Source of the DNA: a virus
DNA: 43,884 nt
IMG/VR virus record: IMGVR_UViG_3300033153_003362
Location: 1 to 43,884 of that record
Reading direction: 5' to 3' (one strand)
This document shows positions 34,317 to 43,821 of the stretch, piece by piece. Each line of letters begins with the position of its first letter. The first letter of the stretch is position 1. A program made the position numbers and the translations under genes. The notes under the pieces were generated by a model. That model ran no database searches, had not been told where the DNA came from, and saw nothing but the letters and a program-made list of their open reading frames with translations.

Positions 34317-34393
34317 GAGAGGTGGTGGACCAGATGCATCGGGGTCGGAAAATGATAGGGGGTGGGGGTCGGGATTCATTCTTGATTCATTGA

Positions 34394-34675
34394 TGCGCGG
34401 ATGCGGTGATGCATGATAGCATCAATGCATGGATGCGCGGATACAATGTTGCGCGGATGCGCGGTTGATAGCATCAAGCGTCAAGCATAATGGATGTATG
34501 CATCATCAGTAAAGCATCAAGCGTCAATCATCAATTCAGTAAAAAAAAACATAACTTTGAGTATATAAAAAGCGCAAATATACCATATATATAATACCTT
34601 TTATATTCTAGTTAAGTGATAAAAAGAATATTAGAATACGGATGCATTATTGCATAAGTGTATCAATGCGCGGAT
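34394..34675 (+). repeat. Iteron-like words TGCGCGGAT and GCATCAAGCGTCAA
   Basis: TGCGCGGAT occurs exactly at 34394, 34434, 34450 and 34667, with a near copy at 34458. TGATAGCATCAA occurs at 34414 and 34466. AGCATCAAGCGTCAA occurs at 34470 and 34513. The set lies beside AT-rich DNA, as iterons do at replication origins. Confidence 0.6.
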
Positions 34676-34700
34676 GTTATCCCTTGCGGTCATTCATCAA

Positions 34701-34812: not shown

Positions 34813-34840
34813 TTGACTATAATAGTGTATTTGATATAAT
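34813..34840 (+). promoter_or_regulatory. Strong host-type promoter of the rightward arm
   Basis: TTGACT (34813-34818), 16 bases, then TGA-TATAAT (34832-34840), an extended -10. Transcription would start near 34847. This excludes the ATG at 34839 as a start and leaves a leader of about 46 bases before the ATG at 34893. Confidence 0.75.
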
Positions 34841-34892
34841 GAGTACATCAAAAGTCAAGCGGTTCAATCAGTATTTAAGGAAAGGAAAATCA

Positions 34893-36182
34893 ATGCAAGT
34901 GGAAATGTTTGAAGCGGTAAAAGAAAAAGAATTTTCACAAGAACTTTTGCAATTCTTTGCGGAAAACAATTTGCAAAGTGTTTTATCCGCGCTAAAGAAT
35001 AGCAAAGGTTCAAACAATTTTTTTGCTTTATCAGTGGAAGATAAAACAAAAATATCATACTTGCGCGGTGATAGGATTCCAGAAAATCGCGGTATGCTTT
35101 ATGATTCGGAATACAGAAAAAAATATGCCTATCATACCAGAATAGGAAAAATTATCAGTGGCATGGAATATGATGCGGATGAATATAGGCGCGTATGTGA
35201 ATTGTTATTCTTGCGCGGTAAAAAGTACAATATACAATTCACAAAAAATATCCGCGCTTCATACCATGAGGAAAATTATGCGGATTCAAGCGGTGACTTG
35301 GGCAATTCATGTATGCGCCATGATTCAAGTCAAGACGCGATAGGATTCTATAATAGTCTTGGCGCGGATGTTGTATCACTTGCGGTCATTCGTGATTGTG
35401 GCGGTGCAATTTTGGCGCGTGGTCTATTTTGGAAAGCTGTACGGATCAAGACGGATGATGTATCGCGCTATGATAATCAGGCATTCAAGTACACTGAATA
35501 TCTTGATAGGGTCTATGCGGTTGATTCTAATGTTGCATCCGCGCTGTATCAATGGGCGGAAAGCAAAAACATTCCGCATTATAAAAACAATTCATTTGAA
35601 AAATTAGTCAAGATTCCATATTCCGCGCAAGATACGGATGCGCCTATGCCGTACTTTGACACTTTCCGCTATTGTGATGAAGCCTTGAAAGGTCTTTCAT
35701 CTTTTGGCGGTGATGTTTGCCTTGATAGTACGGAATATGATTCGGTTGATGAATTGACTTCTGGAAGGTATTCATGCGCGGATTGTGGCGCAAGGATGCA
35801 TGAAGATGATTCAAATTATGTTGATGATGTTGGGTCTTGTTGTGATGAATGCGCGGTATATAGTGAAGCGTATGAAAATTGTATCATGCGCGGTGATGCG
35901 GTGTATTCGGAAAATCTTAATTCATGGATAAATAAAGGTGATGATAATTATATTTATTGTGAAGGTGCGGAAGATTATTTTCATTGTGATGATTGTACTT
36001 ATGATGATTATGCGGAAGAATATATTCCGTCATGTGATGCGGTTCAATTAGAAAATGGCGATTATACGCATCAAGATAATGCGGTTGATTATGAAGGTGA
36101 AAATTATTTGATAGATGAATGTACTCAAAATGAAAATGGAACTTGGATTCCAGAAGGGATTGAAGATGAAAGCATTGTATAA
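34893..36182 (+). CDS. Phage protein with SCMR block and acidic Cys-rich C-terminus; first gene of the rightward arm
   Basis: 429 residues from the ATG at 34893, preceded by AAGGAAAGG; an ATG at 34839 overlaps the promoter -10. The N-terminal 260 residues contain GDLGNSCMRH (about 134-143), GRALLW-like ARGLFWKAV and DRVYAV blocks. I recall this pattern from uncharacterised proteins of other phages. The C-terminal part is very acidic, with Cys pairs (CADC 295-298, CCDEC 316-320, CDDC 365-368) and roughly repeated DxxNY/YxE units, suggesting zinc binding. Codon use is skewed (Ala mostly GCG, Asp GAT, Glu GAA), unlike most of the genome. It overlaps the peptidase gene by 17 bases. Function unknown; first-expressed position suggests host takeover or defence evasion. 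Confidence 0.7.
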   Translation: MQVEMFEAVKEKEFSQELLQFFAENNLQSVLSALKNSKGSNNFFALSVEDKTKISYLRGDRIPENRGMLYDSEYRKKYAYHTRIGKIISGMEYDADEYRRVCELLFLRGKKYNIQFTKNIRASYHEENYADSSGDLGNSCMRHDSSQDAIGFYNSLGADVVSLAVIRDCGGAILARGLFWKAVRIKTDDVSRYDNQAFKYTEYLDRVYAVDSNVASALYQWAESKNIPHYKNNSFEKLVKIPYSAQDTDAPMPYFDTFRYCDEALKGLSSFGGDVCLDSTEYDSVDELTSGRYSCADCGARMHEDDSNYVDDVGSCCDECAVYSEAYENCIMRGDAVYSENLNSWINKGDDNYIYCEGAEDYFHCDDCTYDDYAEEYIPSCDAVQLENGDYTHQDNAVDYEGENYLIDECTQNENGTWIPEGIEDESIV

Positions 36183-37140
36183 AGACTATGCGGATGTTTG
36201 GCATTGTCACAACAGAAGCGGTCACTTGAAAAACATCAAGCGCATTGTCAAGATGCGCCTTGATACTTTGCAAGTGGAATATCATTCGGACAATTTTGGA
36301 AATATAATTGTCGGCAATTTTGAAAAATCGAAGCCTTGCATAGTGGCGCATCTTGATTCGGTGCATAGCAAGGCATCAAAGACAATTTATTTTGATGGAA
36401 ATAGGTTGTCAAGTGACAATGGCATAGGCGCGGATGATAAATGCGGAATAATATCCGCGCTTGAATGCCTAAAAGATTGTGATGTGAATGCGGTCTTTAC
36501 CATTGATGAAGAAATAGGCTGTATCGGTGCGGATAAAATCAACAAGGATATTTTCAAAAATACTTGTTATTTTATTGAAGTTGATAGGCGCGGATGTGAT
36601 GAAGTGATAAATAACTTATGCTATCCGTCATCAACAGGCGCGGTCATGGATGAAGCCTTGAAGCCTTTCATGGATTCATTCGGATTGAAATTCGGTGACG
36701 GAACTTTCACCGACTTGTCAGAAATTATACCAGAAGTGAAAATCGGTGGCATCAATCTATGCGCTGGATATTATGAAGCGCACACATCAAAGGAATATGT
36801 TATCTTGTCGGAATTGTATAAGTCAATCTGTTTTTGCAAGGCTGTATTCAAAGGGATTCGGGATGCATTCCCGATTGAAGTTGATGAAGATTATGGATTC
36901 GGGTCTTTTGGCGGTGTATCGCAAGGCGCGTCATTCCTAGTGGATGATATACAGGAAGCGGATTCAATCGGTGACTTATTCAATGTGATGCTTGACTTGT
37001 ACGGACAAGATTCATTGATGTTTGAAGGGTTGAAAAAAGCCTATGAAATAGGCATGGATGAAGGTCAAGGCATTGATGATGCGATAAAGCCTATTGACTA
37101 TGATGCGCGGTCTTTCCGCGCTTCATTCGATAGAAAATAA
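36166..37140 (+). CDS. M20-type zinc peptidase-like protein
   Basis: 324 residues from the ATG at 36166, behind AGAAGGGA. The metal-binding set of M20 (PepT-like) peptidases is present in order: HLD (His62, Asp64), GADDKCG (Asp90), the general-base pair DEE (Glu115-Glu116), EVD (Asp140) and YEAHTSKE (His206). These five positions would coordinate two zinc ions. M20 members hydrolyse peptides or acyl-amino acids. The protein lacks an obvious dimerisation insert of usual size and has an extra C-terminal helical extension of about 90 residues. It shares the skewed codon use of its partner gene and overlaps it by 17 bases, so the two are co-translated. A signal peptide is absent, so it acts in the cytoplasm; the substrate is unknown. 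Confidence 0.85.
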   Translation: MKALYKDYADVWHCHNRSGHLKNIKRIVKMRLDTLQVEYHSDNFGNIIVGNFEKSKPCIVAHLDSVHSKASKTIYFDGNRLSSDNGIGADDKCGIISALECLKDCDVNAVFTIDEEIGCIGADKINKDIFKNTCYFIEVDRRGCDEVINNLCYPSSTGAVMDEALKPFMDSFGLKFGDGTFTDLSEIIPEVKIGGINLCAGYYEAHTSKEYVILSELYKSICFCKAVFKGIRDAFPIEVDEDYGFGSFGGVSQGASFLVDDIQEADSIGDLFNVMLDLYGQDSLMFEGLKKAYEIGMDEGQGIDDAIKPIDYDARSFRASFDRK

Positions 37141-37754: not shown

Positions 37755-38156
37755 ATGACAAATGAAAATGCAAATGTTTTAGTGAATCAAATCATGGATA
37801 ACATATTGATTGATGAGAATTTGTGCATCATCCGCGAAGCATTGACCGCGTATTTCGATAAGGAATACAAACCAAAACCGCCCATGATTGTGGGTGATGC
37901 TGTTATGGATGTGCAAGTGCAAAGGATGTACCGCTTTGAAACTGACCGACCACTAAAGGCATTCGTTGATATTATTATCAATGATGTGCTTTTGATTAAA
38001 GGTGTACGCGTCATGAGTGGCAAAAACGGATTGTTTGTGTCAATGCCACGTGAACAAAGCAAAGACCAAAAATGGTATGACACAATTAGGTGTCTTACTC
38101 AAGAAGTACGCGACCAAATCACAGAAGTTGTTTTGACTTGCTACAAGGAAGCATAA
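37755..38156 (+). CDS. Hypothetical protein
   Basis: 133 residues. Helical first part (VLVNQIMDNILIDENLCIIREALTAYFD), then beta-rich with RFETDRPLKAFVDIIINDVLL and a helical end. GAAAGGAAA precedes the ATG. No family recognised; base composition returns toward that of the replication genes from here on. Confidence 0.65.
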   Translation: MTNENANVLVNQIMDNILIDENLCIIREALTAYFDKEYKPKPPMIVGDAVMDVQVQRMYRFETDRPLKAFVDIIINDVLLIKGVRVMSGKNGLFVSMPREQSKDQKWYDTIRCLTQEVRDQITEVVLTCYKEA

Positions 38157-39433: not shown

Positions 39434-39470
39434 TTGACAAAACAAAGTATTAGCAGTATATTGCTAACAC
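39434..39470 (+). promoter_or_regulatory. Strong promoter with overlapping operator-like palindrome
   Basis: TTGACA (39434-39439), 17 bases, TATATT (39457-39462), a near-consensus sigma70 promoter. A palindrome GTATTAGCA/TGCTAACAC (39447-39470, 8 of 9 bases paired, 6-base centre) covers the -10. It would be blocked by a dimeric repressor. The gene behind it encodes a double-HTH protein, so self-regulation is likely. Confidence 0.85.
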
Positions 39471-39489: not shown

Positions 39490-39888
39490 ATGATTAAATA
39501 TGAAGGTAAGACCTACCTAAACACTGAGGAAGCGTCACAATTCTTAGGCAAGAATACCGCGTCTTTCAGGCAATTCTACTACAGATCAAAATTACCAAAA
39601 CGAAAATTAGGCGGACGGCTCTATTTTGCTCAGCAAGACCTTGATGGTCTTTTTGCTAAAAAGGGCTTTGCTCATTTTGAACCTTCCGGCTTAGGGTATG
39701 ACGACGTTTATACTATTGAGCAGTTGCTTAATATATTCATGACCACAAAACAACACGTTTATCATCTTCTAGCACGAAGTAAAGTCAGACGCTACAAAGA
39801 TAACGTGAACAAGACACTATACAACAAACAAGACATAGACCTACACCTAAATAAAATGAGTTCTAACAAGGAAGTGGATGACCTCTAA
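39490..39888 (+). CDS. Protein with two excisionase/MerR-like HTH domains
   Basis: 132 residues carrying two similar helix-turn-helix units. First: YLNTEEASQFLGKNTASFRQFYY followed by KRKLGGRLYFAQQDL, a wing. Second: YTIEQLLNIFMTTKQHVYHLLAR followed by RRYKDNVNKTLYNKQDI. Both fit the small excisionase/HTH_17 pattern in which a helix pair reads DNA and the wing follows. Fused tandem copies could bind a palindrome as a monomer. AAGGGGAG precedes the ATG. It lies directly after a promoter with a palindrome, so it probably controls this downstream operon. It overlaps the next gene by 11 bases. Confidence 0.8.
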   Translation: MIKYEGKTYLNTEEASQFLGKNTASFRQFYYRSKLPKRKLGGRLYFAQQDLDGLFAKKGFAHFEPSGLGYDDVYTIEQLLNIFMTTKQHVYHLLARSKVRRYKDNVNKTLYNKQDIDLHLNKMSSNKEVDDL

Positions 39889-41962
39889 AACAACACAAGA
39901 TGCGCAAGTTTTAGCCCTCTACATCAAAGCCGGTATAATGTTGACCCCATGCATCGGGAACACAACATTACCGGCTAAGAAGGGCTTCCAGAACACACCT
40001 TACGACCCTTCTTTTAGACCCGCGACCGCGAATTATCAGGCGATACTATCCCACAGGATTATGGTAATTGATGTTGACCGCAGGGCATTCAAGCCGGGCG
40101 ATAAACCTTTAAGCCGATTGTTCAAAGACCTTCAAATCGACGGCAAAACGCTGATGAGCAATACCTTTGTTGTTGCTACACCTTCAAAGGGCTATCATAT
40201 TTATTTCTCGAAGCCTGAGAATATGAAAGTTAAGCAACACCTAAAGGACTATCCCGGGCTTGAATTTAAGGATCGATGGATAATGGCCGCAGGGTCTTAT
40301 CGTATCATGCCGAAGAAACCCGAAGGCGCGTACTCTATTCATAATGGTACGCCCGCGAACTTAGCACCGATTCCAAATGTCCTTCTTGCCCTGCTTATTA
40401 GGGAAGACCGCGTTGATATTGTTAAGGAAGGGCTGGTAAGCAACCACGCTTCAAATATCAAAGCATTCATACAGTTTTGCCAGACGACCGAACCGGCTAT
40501 CGAAAACCAAAATGGTGATTCGCGGACGTATAACGTCGCTTGTGTCGGCAAAGGCAAGGGGTTATCGCGGGATAAAACTCTCGAAATAATGCTCCAACAC
40601 TTTAATCCGCGCTGTGTTCCTCAGTGGGATGTTGTTGATATGACCCAAAAGGTTGAAAATTCCTATGCTTTTGGGCATCTACCTTTGGGCGCGGTGGGTG
40701 TTGAAGCGGATTTTGACGAACCGCCACAGAACGAACCGACCGAAAAGATCGGAAGATGGGATAAGTTTAAGAACGGCTCTTACAAGATCACGCGCAATAA
40801 TTTAAGCAACATTCTATTTAAGATACCCGCGGCACCTTGCCGGAATCTTTTTCAATTCAATGATTTTTCTCATACTATCGAGTTGACCAAGAGACCTCTT
40901 TGGCGCAAAGAAGGGGCGACGTGGGATGATTCTGATGCGATTCAATTAGCGCAGTACATATCAGATAACCACGCTTTTGAAGCGAACATAAATATGATTC
41001 ACGAAACTGTTCACGCGGAGAGCAAGCGCAAAAGCTATCACCCTGTCAAAGATTACCTCAATTCCATAACTTTTGATACGCAGAATCCTATCTTGAATAA
41101 TTGGCTATCGGTATATTGTGGCGCGCCTGACACACGCTACACGCGGTTTGTTGGTAGAAAAATGTTGATCGCGGCGGTTGCAAGGATATTTAACCCCGGC
41201 ATTAAGTTTGACCACGTGCCTGTATTAGAGGGAAAGCAAGGCATAGGTAAATCGCTATTGTGTGCCACGTTATCATCACCATGGTTCTCTGACGCGCATT
41301 TTGACGTTAGGGATAAGGATTCTATCGCGCTATTGCAAGGGCATTGGATTATTGAGTTGGCTGAAATGAGTGTCTTGACCAAATCAGCCGTTGAAAATTT
41401 GAAAGCATTCATCACGCGCCAAGTGGACAAGATGCGACCGGCATACGGCAGGACTGTTCAATCTTTTCCGCGCCAATGTATTTTTATTGGCACGATCAAT
41501 CCGGAAAATCAGGGATACCTTAGAGACCCTACGGGCAACAGAAGATTTTGGCCTGTGCCAATAGAAACTGTTGACGTGCTAAAACTCCGTGATGACCGAG
41601 ATCAACTTTGGGCGGAAGCCTACTACTATTACAAACGCGGGGAAGATATTCACGTACCTGATAGAGAAACTCAGCTGCTTATCGAGCGCGAGATTATCAA
41701 AAGGCAGCAAGAAGATCCGTGGTTTGAGGTTGTTGAGCAATTTATTGATAACAACTACTCCGATTATATCGAAGGTGATGCGTGTGTCATACTACCGAGC
41801 GAATTGTATGTAAATGCTCTCGAGGGCAAGAGTGCGAAGATTACGAGCTACGAAGCATCCAGAATTTCCAACATATTGGTGAGGTTGGGCTTCGAGAGGT
41901 TAATTGACATCAGAAACAAGAGAACGAGCAAATATACTAAACCGGTAGAGCAATTCTTATGA
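39878..41962 (+). CDS. Primase-polymerase / VapE-type helicase
   Basis: 694 residues. The N-terminal domain matches the prim-pol (archaeo-eukaryotic primase) family: VIDVDRR gives the metal-binding Asp65 and Asp67, and GYHIYFS gives His107. The C-terminal half is a VapE-type helicase (virulence-associated E family, a D5/SF3-like AAA+ class): Walker A EGKQGIGKS (451-459), Walker B-like WIIELAE, and an arginine-bearing GNRRFWPV segment. It would both prime synthesis and unwind DNA at the fork. It starts inside the HTH gene end and joins the next gene by ATGA. This gene is usual in Enc34-type replication modules, alongside the SNF2 helicase. Confidence 0.95.
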   Translation: MTSKTTQDAQVLALYIKAGIMLTPCIGNTTLPAKKGFQNTPYDPSFRPATANYQAILSHRIMVIDVDRRAFKPGDKPLSRLFKDLQIDGKTLMSNTFVVATPSKGYHIYFSKPENMKVKQHLKDYPGLEFKDRWIMAAGSYRIMPKKPEGAYSIHNGTPANLAPIPNVLLALLIREDRVDIVKEGLVSNHASNIKAFIQFCQTTEPAIENQNGDSRTYNVACVGKGKGLSRDKTLEIMLQHFNPRCVPQWDVVDMTQKVENSYAFGHLPLGAVGVEADFDEPPQNEPTEKIGRWDKFKNGSYKITRNNLSNILFKIPAAPCRNLFQFNDFSHTIELTKRPLWRKEGATWDDSDAIQLAQYISDNHAFEANINMIHETVHAESKRKSYHPVKDYLNSITFDTQNPILNNWLSVYCGAPDTRYTRFVGRKMLIAAVARIFNPGIKFDHVPVLEGKQGIGKSLLCATLSSPWFSDAHFDVRDKDSIALLQGHWIIELAEMSVLTKSAVENLKAFITRQVDKMRPAYGRTVQSFPRQCIFIGTINPENQGYLRDPTGNRRFWPVPIETVDVLKLRDDRDQLWAEAYYYYKRGEDIHVPDRETQLLIEREIIKRQQEDPWFEVVEQFIDNNYSDYIEGDACVILPSELYVNALEGKSAKITSYEASRISNILVRLGFERLIDIRNKRTSKYTKPVEQFL

Positions 41963-42114
41963 AATTGACCATTGAATTTCCAGTACACAAAGACGAAGTT
42001 AAGGACATCAATTTTGATGTGTGCAAGGCTATTGATGATATTCGCCATAAGAGAACGAGAAACACTAAAGACAAAAACCTTAGAATTATCGCGATTACAA
42101 TAGAACAAAAATAA
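41959..42114 (+). CDS. Small basic protein between the two helicases
   Basis: 51 residues, read by translation. Starts KLTIEFPVHKDEVKDIN, then a helix (CKAIDDIRHKRTR) and a hydrophobic end (NLRIIAITIEQK). ATGA overlap with the VapE stop supports expression. Not recognised. Confidence 0.6.
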   Translation: MKLTIEFPVHKDEVKDINFDVCKAIDDIRHKRTRNTKDKNLRIIAITIEQK

Positions 42115-42123
42115 GACAAGACG

Positions 42124-43821
42124 ATGCTAAAGCCAAGACAATATCAAAAAGAAGGAATCGAGTTCCTGTCAAACAAGAGGTATGCCCTGTTAGCTGATGA
42201 CCCGGGAATCGGGAAGTCTATGCAGGCCATTCTTGCCTGTGGTGAGATCAAGGCAAAGAAAATCCTTGTCATCTGCCCTGCCCAAGTTAAATACAACTGG
42301 AAAAAGGAATTTGATAAATGGACGCCAAAGAAATACTCTATTGGCATCATTGATAAATCGACTCAGCCTGTGCCAAAGACTCAGGTAGTTATTGTTAACT
42401 ACGATTTGGTCATCAGAAAGGCGCTTCACGATAAATTGTCGGCTATGGTGTTCGATGTCATCATCAATGATGAGAGCCACCGGCTTAAAAACCCACAAGC
42501 CAACAGGACAAAGAAGGTTTTGGGCAAGTTTGGTTTGATAAGAAGGTGCAGAAGGATGTGGTTCTTGACCGGAACACCAGTTACAAACCGCCCTATCGAC
42601 CTTTACCCTCTCGTTGCCCGGTGTATGAATGGAGAATTTAAGCCTTATGACAAGTATCTTACCTTCGCGTATCGCTACTGTGGGGCTTATCAGGGGCGAT
42701 TTGGCTTGGTCACAACAGGCGCGACCCACCTGAAAGAGTTAGGGGAGAAAATAGGTGACTTCTTATTGCGCCGTACAAAGGGCGAGGTGTTGAAGGAATT
42801 GCCCAAGCGCATCATCACCCATATTGAGTTTGATTGCACCCCTGCTGTGAGAAGGCTGATTGAATTAGAGGAAGAAGAAACGGTATCATTGGCTGGTGAT
42901 CGAGACCCCGAGCACTTTAAGATGGGTGAAATCTCAAGAATCAGGCGGGCAGTCGCAAAACATAAGCTGAAAGACGCGGCTGGTTTTATCGAGGATAGAC
43001 TTGAAGAAGATAAGGTCGTGGTGTTCTTCTATCACAAAGAGGTGCGCCGATACCTTCAAGACAAGTTTAAGAAGTACGACCCATTGGTAATCGATGGCTC
43101 GGTCCCAGCCAAAAAGAGAACAGAGATCGTTGAAAAGTTTATGACTGACCCTAAGCATCGGGTATTCTTAGGGCAAATGGAAGCAGCCGGTGAGGGAATC
43201 GACGGACTACAACACGCATCTTCAACTTGCATATTCGTTGAACCCTCTTGGTTGCCTAAAGACATGGATCAATGTATCAGTCGTCTTGAACGTATGGGGC
43301 AAACAAAGCCGGTTAACGCGTATATTCTGACGATTCGCGACACCATTGAATCAAAGATGATGAAGCTGTTGGAATGGAAATTGCAGAACATAAACATAAT
43401 ACTAAACGATAACAAAACACTAAAAACCACAAAACAGGAGACAGAAATGCCAAAGAAAAAGTATTTAGAGGAAAAAGTTGATGAGTTAATCGAGAAGGTC
43501 GAAGCTTTAATAGCCATCTGCGAAGAACAGATCGCTCATCCGGTGCAAACCATTGACCCCGCTGCAATCGGTGGCGATCGTACTACGGAAGCGCCTGAGC
43601 CCGAAGCTGACCCTGAGCCAGAGGAAACGGAAGCCGGCATATCTATCGGTGACGTTAGGAAATTAGCGGCAGCTATCACCAAAGCCGACGGTGTGAATGG
43701 CAAGAATGCTTGTGTCAAGATCATCGAGGGTGTTGGTGGTGCAGGAAAGAAACTCGCTGACTTAACACCAGCCGAGCTTCAAGCCGTTGCAGAACAGTTT
43801 GAGGAGGTGCTCAGTGCCTAA
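42124..43821 (+). CDS. SNF2-type (SF2) helicase with fused C-terminal domain
   Basis: 565 residues. The N-terminal helicase lobe has Walker A DDPGIGKS (25-32), Ia-like ILVICPAQV, the DESH box (116-119) and WFLTGTP. The second lobe has FLGQMEAAGEGIDGLQHA and QCISRLERMGQ, the arginine-finger segment. This is a helicase/translocase found beside VapE and DUF2800 in many phages. After about residue 430 comes an A-rich linker (NDNKTLKTTKQETE) and then a separate 125-residue part starting at an in-frame ATG (43447) with its own SD. The gene ends overlapping the DUF2800 start. Confidence 0.93.
   Translation: MLKPRQYQKEGIEFLSNKRYALLADDPGIGKSMQAILACGEIKAKKILVICPAQVKYNWKKEFDKWTPKKYSIGIIDKSTQPVPKTQVVIVNYDLVIRKALHDKLSAMVFDVIINDESHRLKNPQANRTKKVLGKFGLIRRCRRMWFLTGTPVTNRPIDLYPLVARCMNGEFKPYDKYLTFAYRYCGAYQGRFGLVTTGATHLKELGEKIGDFLLRRTKGEVLKELPKRIITHIEFDCTPAVRRLIELEEEETVSLAGDRDPEHFKMGEISRIRRAVAKHKLKDAAGFIEDRLEEDKVVVFFYHKEVRRYLQDKFKKYDPLVIDGSVPAKKRTEIVEKFMTDPKHRVFLGQMEAAGEGIDGLQHASSTCIFVEPSWLPKDMDQCISRLERMGQTKPVNAYILTIRDTIESKMMKLLEWKLQNINIILNDNKTLKTTKQETEMPKKKYLEEKVDELIEKVEALIAICEEQIAHPVQTIDPAAIGGDRTTEAPEPEADPEPEETEAGISIGDVRKLAAAITKADGVNGKNACVKIIEGVGGAGKKLADLTPAELQAVAEQFEEVLSA
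43447..43821 (+). other. Possible internal start giving a 124-residue C-terminal product
   Basis: Inside the SNF2 gene, same frame. The sequence CACAAAACAGGAGACAGAAATG looks like the gap before other genes here (compare the AGGAGAACAGGAAA leader at 1602): A-rich with a CAGGAG site 6 bases before the ATG. The encoded part has a coiled coil (EEKVDELIEKVEALIAICEE), an acidic Pro/Glu linker and a helical end (ISIGDVRKLAAAITKADGVN... LADLTPAELQAVAEQF) of a type often found at the C-terminus of phage DNA proteins. Likely a once-separate gene joined in frame, perhaps still translated alone. Confidence 0.5.

Follow-up and report, generated by a model that had tools for sequence, protein, structure and literature searches.

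The window analysed here, 43,884 nucleotides of viral DNA (IMG/VR record IMGVR_UViG_3300033153_003362, positions 1 to 43,884), carries on its plus strand two adjacent open reading frames (ORFs), hereafter S and P. ORF S (34893..36182, ATG at 34893) codes for an acidic SCM-family protein of 429 amino acids with 16 Cys residues, and ORF P (36166..37140, ATG at 36166) for a protein of 324 amino acids, a predicted zinc peptidase/amidohydrolase of the M20/M28/M42 group (phrog_4191). The two ORFs overlap by exactly 17 bases, in agreement to the base with the first-pass annotation of the window, and each is preceded by a Shine-Dalgarno-like sequence read from the same strand, AAGGAAAGG at 34877..34885 ahead of S and AGAAGGG at 36152..36158, within S, ahead of P. 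Upstream of both, a consensus scan placed a sigma70-type promoter-like site with an extended -10 element on the plus strand at 34813..34840 (TTGACT-16-TATAAT, TG preceding the -10), a consensus match only, which agrees at 11 of 12 positions and is the best of the region. A second promoter-like site at 39434 likewise scores 11/12, so that the claim that the genes sit behind the strongest rightward promoter is right as to the best match and a tie as to the hexamers. Codon use, claimed to be shared by S and P and unlike that of the neighbouring arm, gave a similarly divided result: the RSCU distance between S and P is 0.17, that to the terminase 0.32 for S and 0.24 for P, and both are AT-richer than the terminase (GC3 of 0.30, 0.41 and 0.61 in S, P and terminase, respectively), but AT-rich third positions are not special to them, other small early genes being AT-rich too.

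The gene position suggests that S and P are expressed early, and other phages likewise carry the pair in their early/replication region, in keeping with the early position originally proposed. The same rightward block includes a small early gene (37755-38156) whose product contains a SpoVG domain (Pfam PF04026, E = 2.1e-19), SpoVG being a bacterial regulator family, and the region downstream of S and P (39490-43821) codes for an HTH_17 protein, a Prim-Pol/VapE-like primase-helicase and a SNF2-type helicase (Pfam). The leader between the two arms (34380-34700) contains iterated words, e.g. GATGCGCGGATG and GCATCAAGCGTCAA, similar words being found again within ORF S; these are possibly an origin or a regulator-binding array.

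P matches phrog_4191, annotated as 'peptidase' (PHROG, E = 2.7e-33), and a profile of 14 of its phage relatives compared with the PDB recovered peptidase T (E = 1.6e-26) and, more weakly, M42, M28 and M20 enzymes. Peptidase T and its M20/M28/M42 relatives share with P the ligands of the two-zinc site (H-x-D, bridging D, EE, D and H), which is complete in P within the span from H62 to H206 (36349..36783, plus strand); the metal and catalytic residues H62, D64, D90, E115, E116, D140 and H206 are all invariant among the 242 copies compared, bearing out the full zinc-peptidase active site ascribed to P at first reading. The M20 type proposed alongside was right about the M20-like zinc site and went too far as a classification, since P falls below the Pfam cut-offs for M20 (16.7 vs 24.6) and M42 (19.5 vs 23.2), and also below the NCBIfam PepT-like cut-off (38.6 vs 274). 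Moreover, only 66 residues separate D140 from H206 in the sequence, which leaves no room for the M20 lid/dimerisation domain; P therefore apparently lacks this domain, and was filed as an M20/M28/M42-group metallopeptidase and not as M20 proper. We read P as a lid-less relative of this group that is, from its conserved residues, probably active. The signal peptide was correctly described as absent: the N-terminus of P contains no hydrophobic stretch, and neither S nor P has an export signal. Several relatives of P carry a zinc-ribbon-like Cys-rich tail at their C-terminus.

S, described beforehand as an acidic, Cys-rich protein with an SCMR block, indeed has a pI of 4.4 and contains the sequence GNSCMR. 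The acid and most of the Cys residues are concentrated in its C-terminal third, the last 149 residues (281-429) containing 41 Asp/Glu, 4 Lys/Arg and 11 Cys, whereas the protein outside this tail is near-neutral (40 acidic and 36 basic residues). AlphaFold2 (AF2) modelling, CxxC pairs and the charge count together point to a beta-hairpin tail at residues 292-420 (35766..36152, plus strand), predicted as short strands in series with a pLDDT of about 95 at residues 310-420, which probably binds zinc. S could also be an antirestriction protein or an acidic mimic of DNA, the annotation given in Klebsiella phage KPPK108.1, with P as a nearby helper; the strongly acidic tail would suit such a role, but the acidity is limited to the tail of an otherwise motif-rich protein, the coupling to a peptidase would be left unexplained, and our searches found no experiment behind the KPPK108.1 annotation, so that we consider this very improbable. 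Residues invariant in the S-family alignment (S numbering) comprise S139-C140-M141 (35307..35315, plus strand; invariant in three family alignments), Y153, R176, W180, D205-R206-x-Y208 and P253-Y254-x-D256. A papain-like Cys peptidase was dropped as a candidate for S, whose core has no invariant His.

S belongs to no family in Pfam, PHROG, NCBIfam or PADLOC: hmmscan, phmmer and hmmsearch runs against Pfam, NCBIfam, PADLOC and PDB sequences were uninformative, and the PADLOC models gave zero matches for S, P and three neighbours. Family alignments were needed for the IMG/VR scans, in which single proteins (S or P) recovered only fragments of the same virus; relatives were not found either with the Enterococcus phage EF1 protein as lone query. 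Homology of the core was detected between the SCM family and Drulisvirus-type proteins (hhalign E = 5e-11, probability 97%). A further set, SCH, with S-C-H in place of S-C-M, precedes the peptidase in other phages, shows the same motif order and Cys-rich tail, and aligns with SCM with the GK and SC motifs in register (hhalign P from 1.6e-4 to 6e-3); it is a probable sister family homologous to SCM, as judged from these alignments. Motif scans of 84,980 prokaryote species found zero relatives of SCM and a single one of SCH, in Clostridium citroniae, where the peptidase is adjacent too.

The coupling of the two genes, proposed from the window alone, recurs in unrelated phages; the refuting outcome named beforehand, that no other phage has the two side by side, was checked and did not arise. 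Among the IMG/VR loci fetched with S as seed, the peptidase lies next door on the same strand in 49 of 79, in both gene orders and within 200 bases in 48 of the 49 pairs, and an S-type gene lies at most 300 bases away on the same strand in 52/80 and 65/80 loci of the peptidase-seeded fetches, although neither these pair counts nor those by cluster are abundance estimates, because the scans search by conserved motif and retain the top 80. When S sequences were clustered at 60% identity, 15 of the 37 clusters had an adjacent peptidase and 22 did not, 9 of 20 contigs checked without an adjacent peptidase encoding one elsewhere; peptidases clustered at 50% identity had an S-type gene (SCM or probable SCH) within 300 bases in 18/22 and 38/45 clusters, that is, 56/67. 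S and P constitute a genuine two-gene module, whose adjacency recurs far beyond chance, and this side-by-side recurrence in very many unrelated phages means that the two proteins almost certainly work together. A nutrient-salvage peptidase that completes the breakdown of host proteins, in an operon shared with an unrelated regulator, S, would fit the resemblance of P to peptidase T and other exopeptidases; nevertheless, a chance operon would not keep the two genes adjacent in 56 of 67 peptidase clusters, across distant phages and in either order, which makes such an explanation very unlikely.

Using tblastn, the adjacent pair was first found in Klebsiella phage KPV811 and Cellulophaga phage phi38:1, and it also occurs in Vibrio FE11, Pectobacterium PP90, Rhizobium Pasto, Pseudomonas Ep4 and Bradyrhizobium BDU-MI-1 phages, in a faecal phage contig and in a 635-kb huge-phage genome, the named carriers including Drulisvirus KPV811, Maculvirus and Phimunavirus. 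Among the closest known counterparts are KP34 p10/p11 and PhiM1_09/10 (KPV811 gp38/gp37; Slopekvirinae/Corkvirinae), in which an S-family protein is encoded directly upstream of a homologous peptidase, in the early region and before the primase. Unlike S, the upstream protein of this type is longer (about 600-665 amino acids vs 429) and does not keep the D of D-R-x-Y; the pairs are annotated only as hypothetical protein and putative peptidase (PMC4411677, PMC6115819). Cellulophaga phi38:1 gp038/gp037 combines an adjacent SCM protein and peptidase on the same strand, like the window pair, but with the peptidase first. The SCMR block was first linked to uncharacterised phage proteins only. The pair is not restricted to unknown phages, occurring unremarked in cultured ones (KP34 p10/p11, PhiM1_09/10, phi38:1) under the annotations 'hypothetical' and 'putative peptidase'.

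According to our neighbour tally, the pair is flanked in relatives by replication and recombination genes, and its neighbours in the window, the VapE-like primase-helicase and the SNF2 helicase, are alike. In Rhizobium phage Pasto it directly follows an ArdA-like antirestriction gene. These surroundings would be consistent with a role of S and P in making or maturing either a small product of peptide type or a modified base in DNA, so as to protect phage DNA, S adding an aminoacyl group and P trimming it, for which the GNAT-family Mom of phage Mu, which modifies DNA bases, offers a parallel (PMC7824862). We find this rather improbable, however, as the tally shows no recurrent nucleotide-modification enzymes next to the pair and library searches gave no link between S and Mom.

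AlphaFold predicted both the core and the tail of S with confidence, and the core of the Cellulophaga phi38:1 homologue, the better of two models, with a pLDDT of 90 and a pTM of 0.87. The order of elements in these two divergent members (helix, strand, helices, three antiparallel strands, helix, strand) is the same as in GNATs, and GNAT-superfamily enzymes lead the Foldseek PDB lists of both models (acetyltransferases, FemX, L-PGS and N-myristoyltransferase; all 50 of the matches listed for phi38:1), on which basis a GNAT-like core was delimited at residues 80-262 of S (35130..35678, plus strand). FemX and L-PGS are aminoacyl transferases with a GNAT fold and an aminoacyl donor; sequence similarity between them and S is not detectable, and S has a single GNAT-like domain. 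The Foldseek matches are weak, the best E being 3.7e-3, with none reaching 1e-3, and TM-scores are below 0.5. The acetyl-CoA P-loop (Q/R-x-x-G-x-G/A, strand 4/helix 3) is absent from 36 of the 37 S members checked, the sole regex match sitting at a helix end, outside the loop, and no member of the S-family alignment matches the Pfam GNAT models. Given these E-values and TM-scores and the absent acetyl-CoA loop, S was not filed as a GNAT; at best, it would share the workings or the ancestry of the GNAT fold, which the models suggest for its core.

The loss of the P-loop, the acidic Cys-rich hairpin array and the tight, often overlapping coupling of the genes would also fit a non-enzymatic S, serving P as adaptor, activator, inhibitor or zinc donor, with the tail recruiting substrates. 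We regard this role as unlikely on balance, because many polar core residues (S-C, R, R, Y, D) are invariant across very divergent phages, which suggests catalysis or ligand binding, and because the S paralogues of huge phages (15 places in one record) outnumber the peptidase copies seen.

Our preferred reading, to which we assign a probability of roughly 40%, is that S and P form one module acting early in infection as a phage amide-bond writer and trimmer. The core of S would acylate or aminoacylate an amine of its target; since the P-loop is missing, the donor is probably not conventionally bound acetyl-CoA, candidates being an aminoacyl donor as in FemX and L-PGS, or a thioester on Cys140. 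The acidic tail may dock S onto this target, and P, as a cytosolic zinc exopeptidase or amidohydrolase, would remove, trim or recycle the product. From the early/replication position of the pair, the likeliest target would be a host factor involved in transcription, translation or defence, by analogy with Rac of phiKMV-like phages. We infer the chemistry, donor, target and timing of action from the coupling of the genes, the active site of P, the two models of S, its conserved core, the replication/early neighbours, the near absence of chromosomal copies and the Rac precedent, all of which count in favour of a writer and trimmer; against it count the Foldseek E-values and TM-scores, the absent P-loop, the lack of any Pfam GNAT match and the 22 of 37 S clusters without an adjacent peptidase.

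GNATs occur in jumbo phages (PMC7824862), and Rac, a GNAT that disables the host RNA polymerase (RNAP), exemplifies a phage GNAT directed against the host transcription machinery (PMC7552054). S would resemble it as a GNAT-fold protein reprogramming the host, its own fold being predicted, and by analogy only, as the hallmark of the Rac type is an acetyltransferase activity leading to cleavage of RNAP alpha. Rac also keeps the acetyl-CoA pocket, whereas S lacks the P-loop, and Rac phages have no predicted protease, whereas S comes with a paired peptidase.

More tentatively still, S may represent a virus-specific GNAT-fold superfamily that dispensed with the acetyl-CoA loop in favour of another donor (aminoacyl or Cys-thioester) and became obligately associated with a lid-less zinc amidohydrolase in a reversible or processed conjugation; the module would then be among the commonest undescribed early modules in tailed phages, whether their hosts are Gram-negative, Gram-positive or Bacteroidota. 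Literature searches found no paper describing S and P as a system, the fold of S, or a function for the pair, in line with the initial statement that no described system combines the two; the genes had been seen before, without their unity being noticed. Tailed phages that infect very different hosts share the module, among them the widely sequenced phages of Klebsiella, and its S half had no family model. Treating a 'hypothetical' protein and a 'peptidase' as one unit, with S transferase-like, leads to a testable question, namely which bond the two make and break, and whether the molecule that carries it, of host or phage, can be named.

Several minor observations concern gene number and gene calls. 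Huge-phage genomes (LR756504, LR756502 and LR745206; loci L017-L020) code for many SCM paralogues, with up to 15 tblastn places per record. The peptidase has SCH-type or similar proteins nearby or on either flank, as if duplicated, in Enterococcus phage EF1 (L015:3613-6938) and in loci L228, L249 and L275. The annotated S and P of Pseudomonas phage Ep4 (L013:3076-5735) overlap by 241 bases, which means that one gene was called too long or that the long overlap is genuine. Finally, two short contigs from sample 3300033148 match the window pair at 100%, are broken inside ORF S, and are apparently pieces of the same virus.
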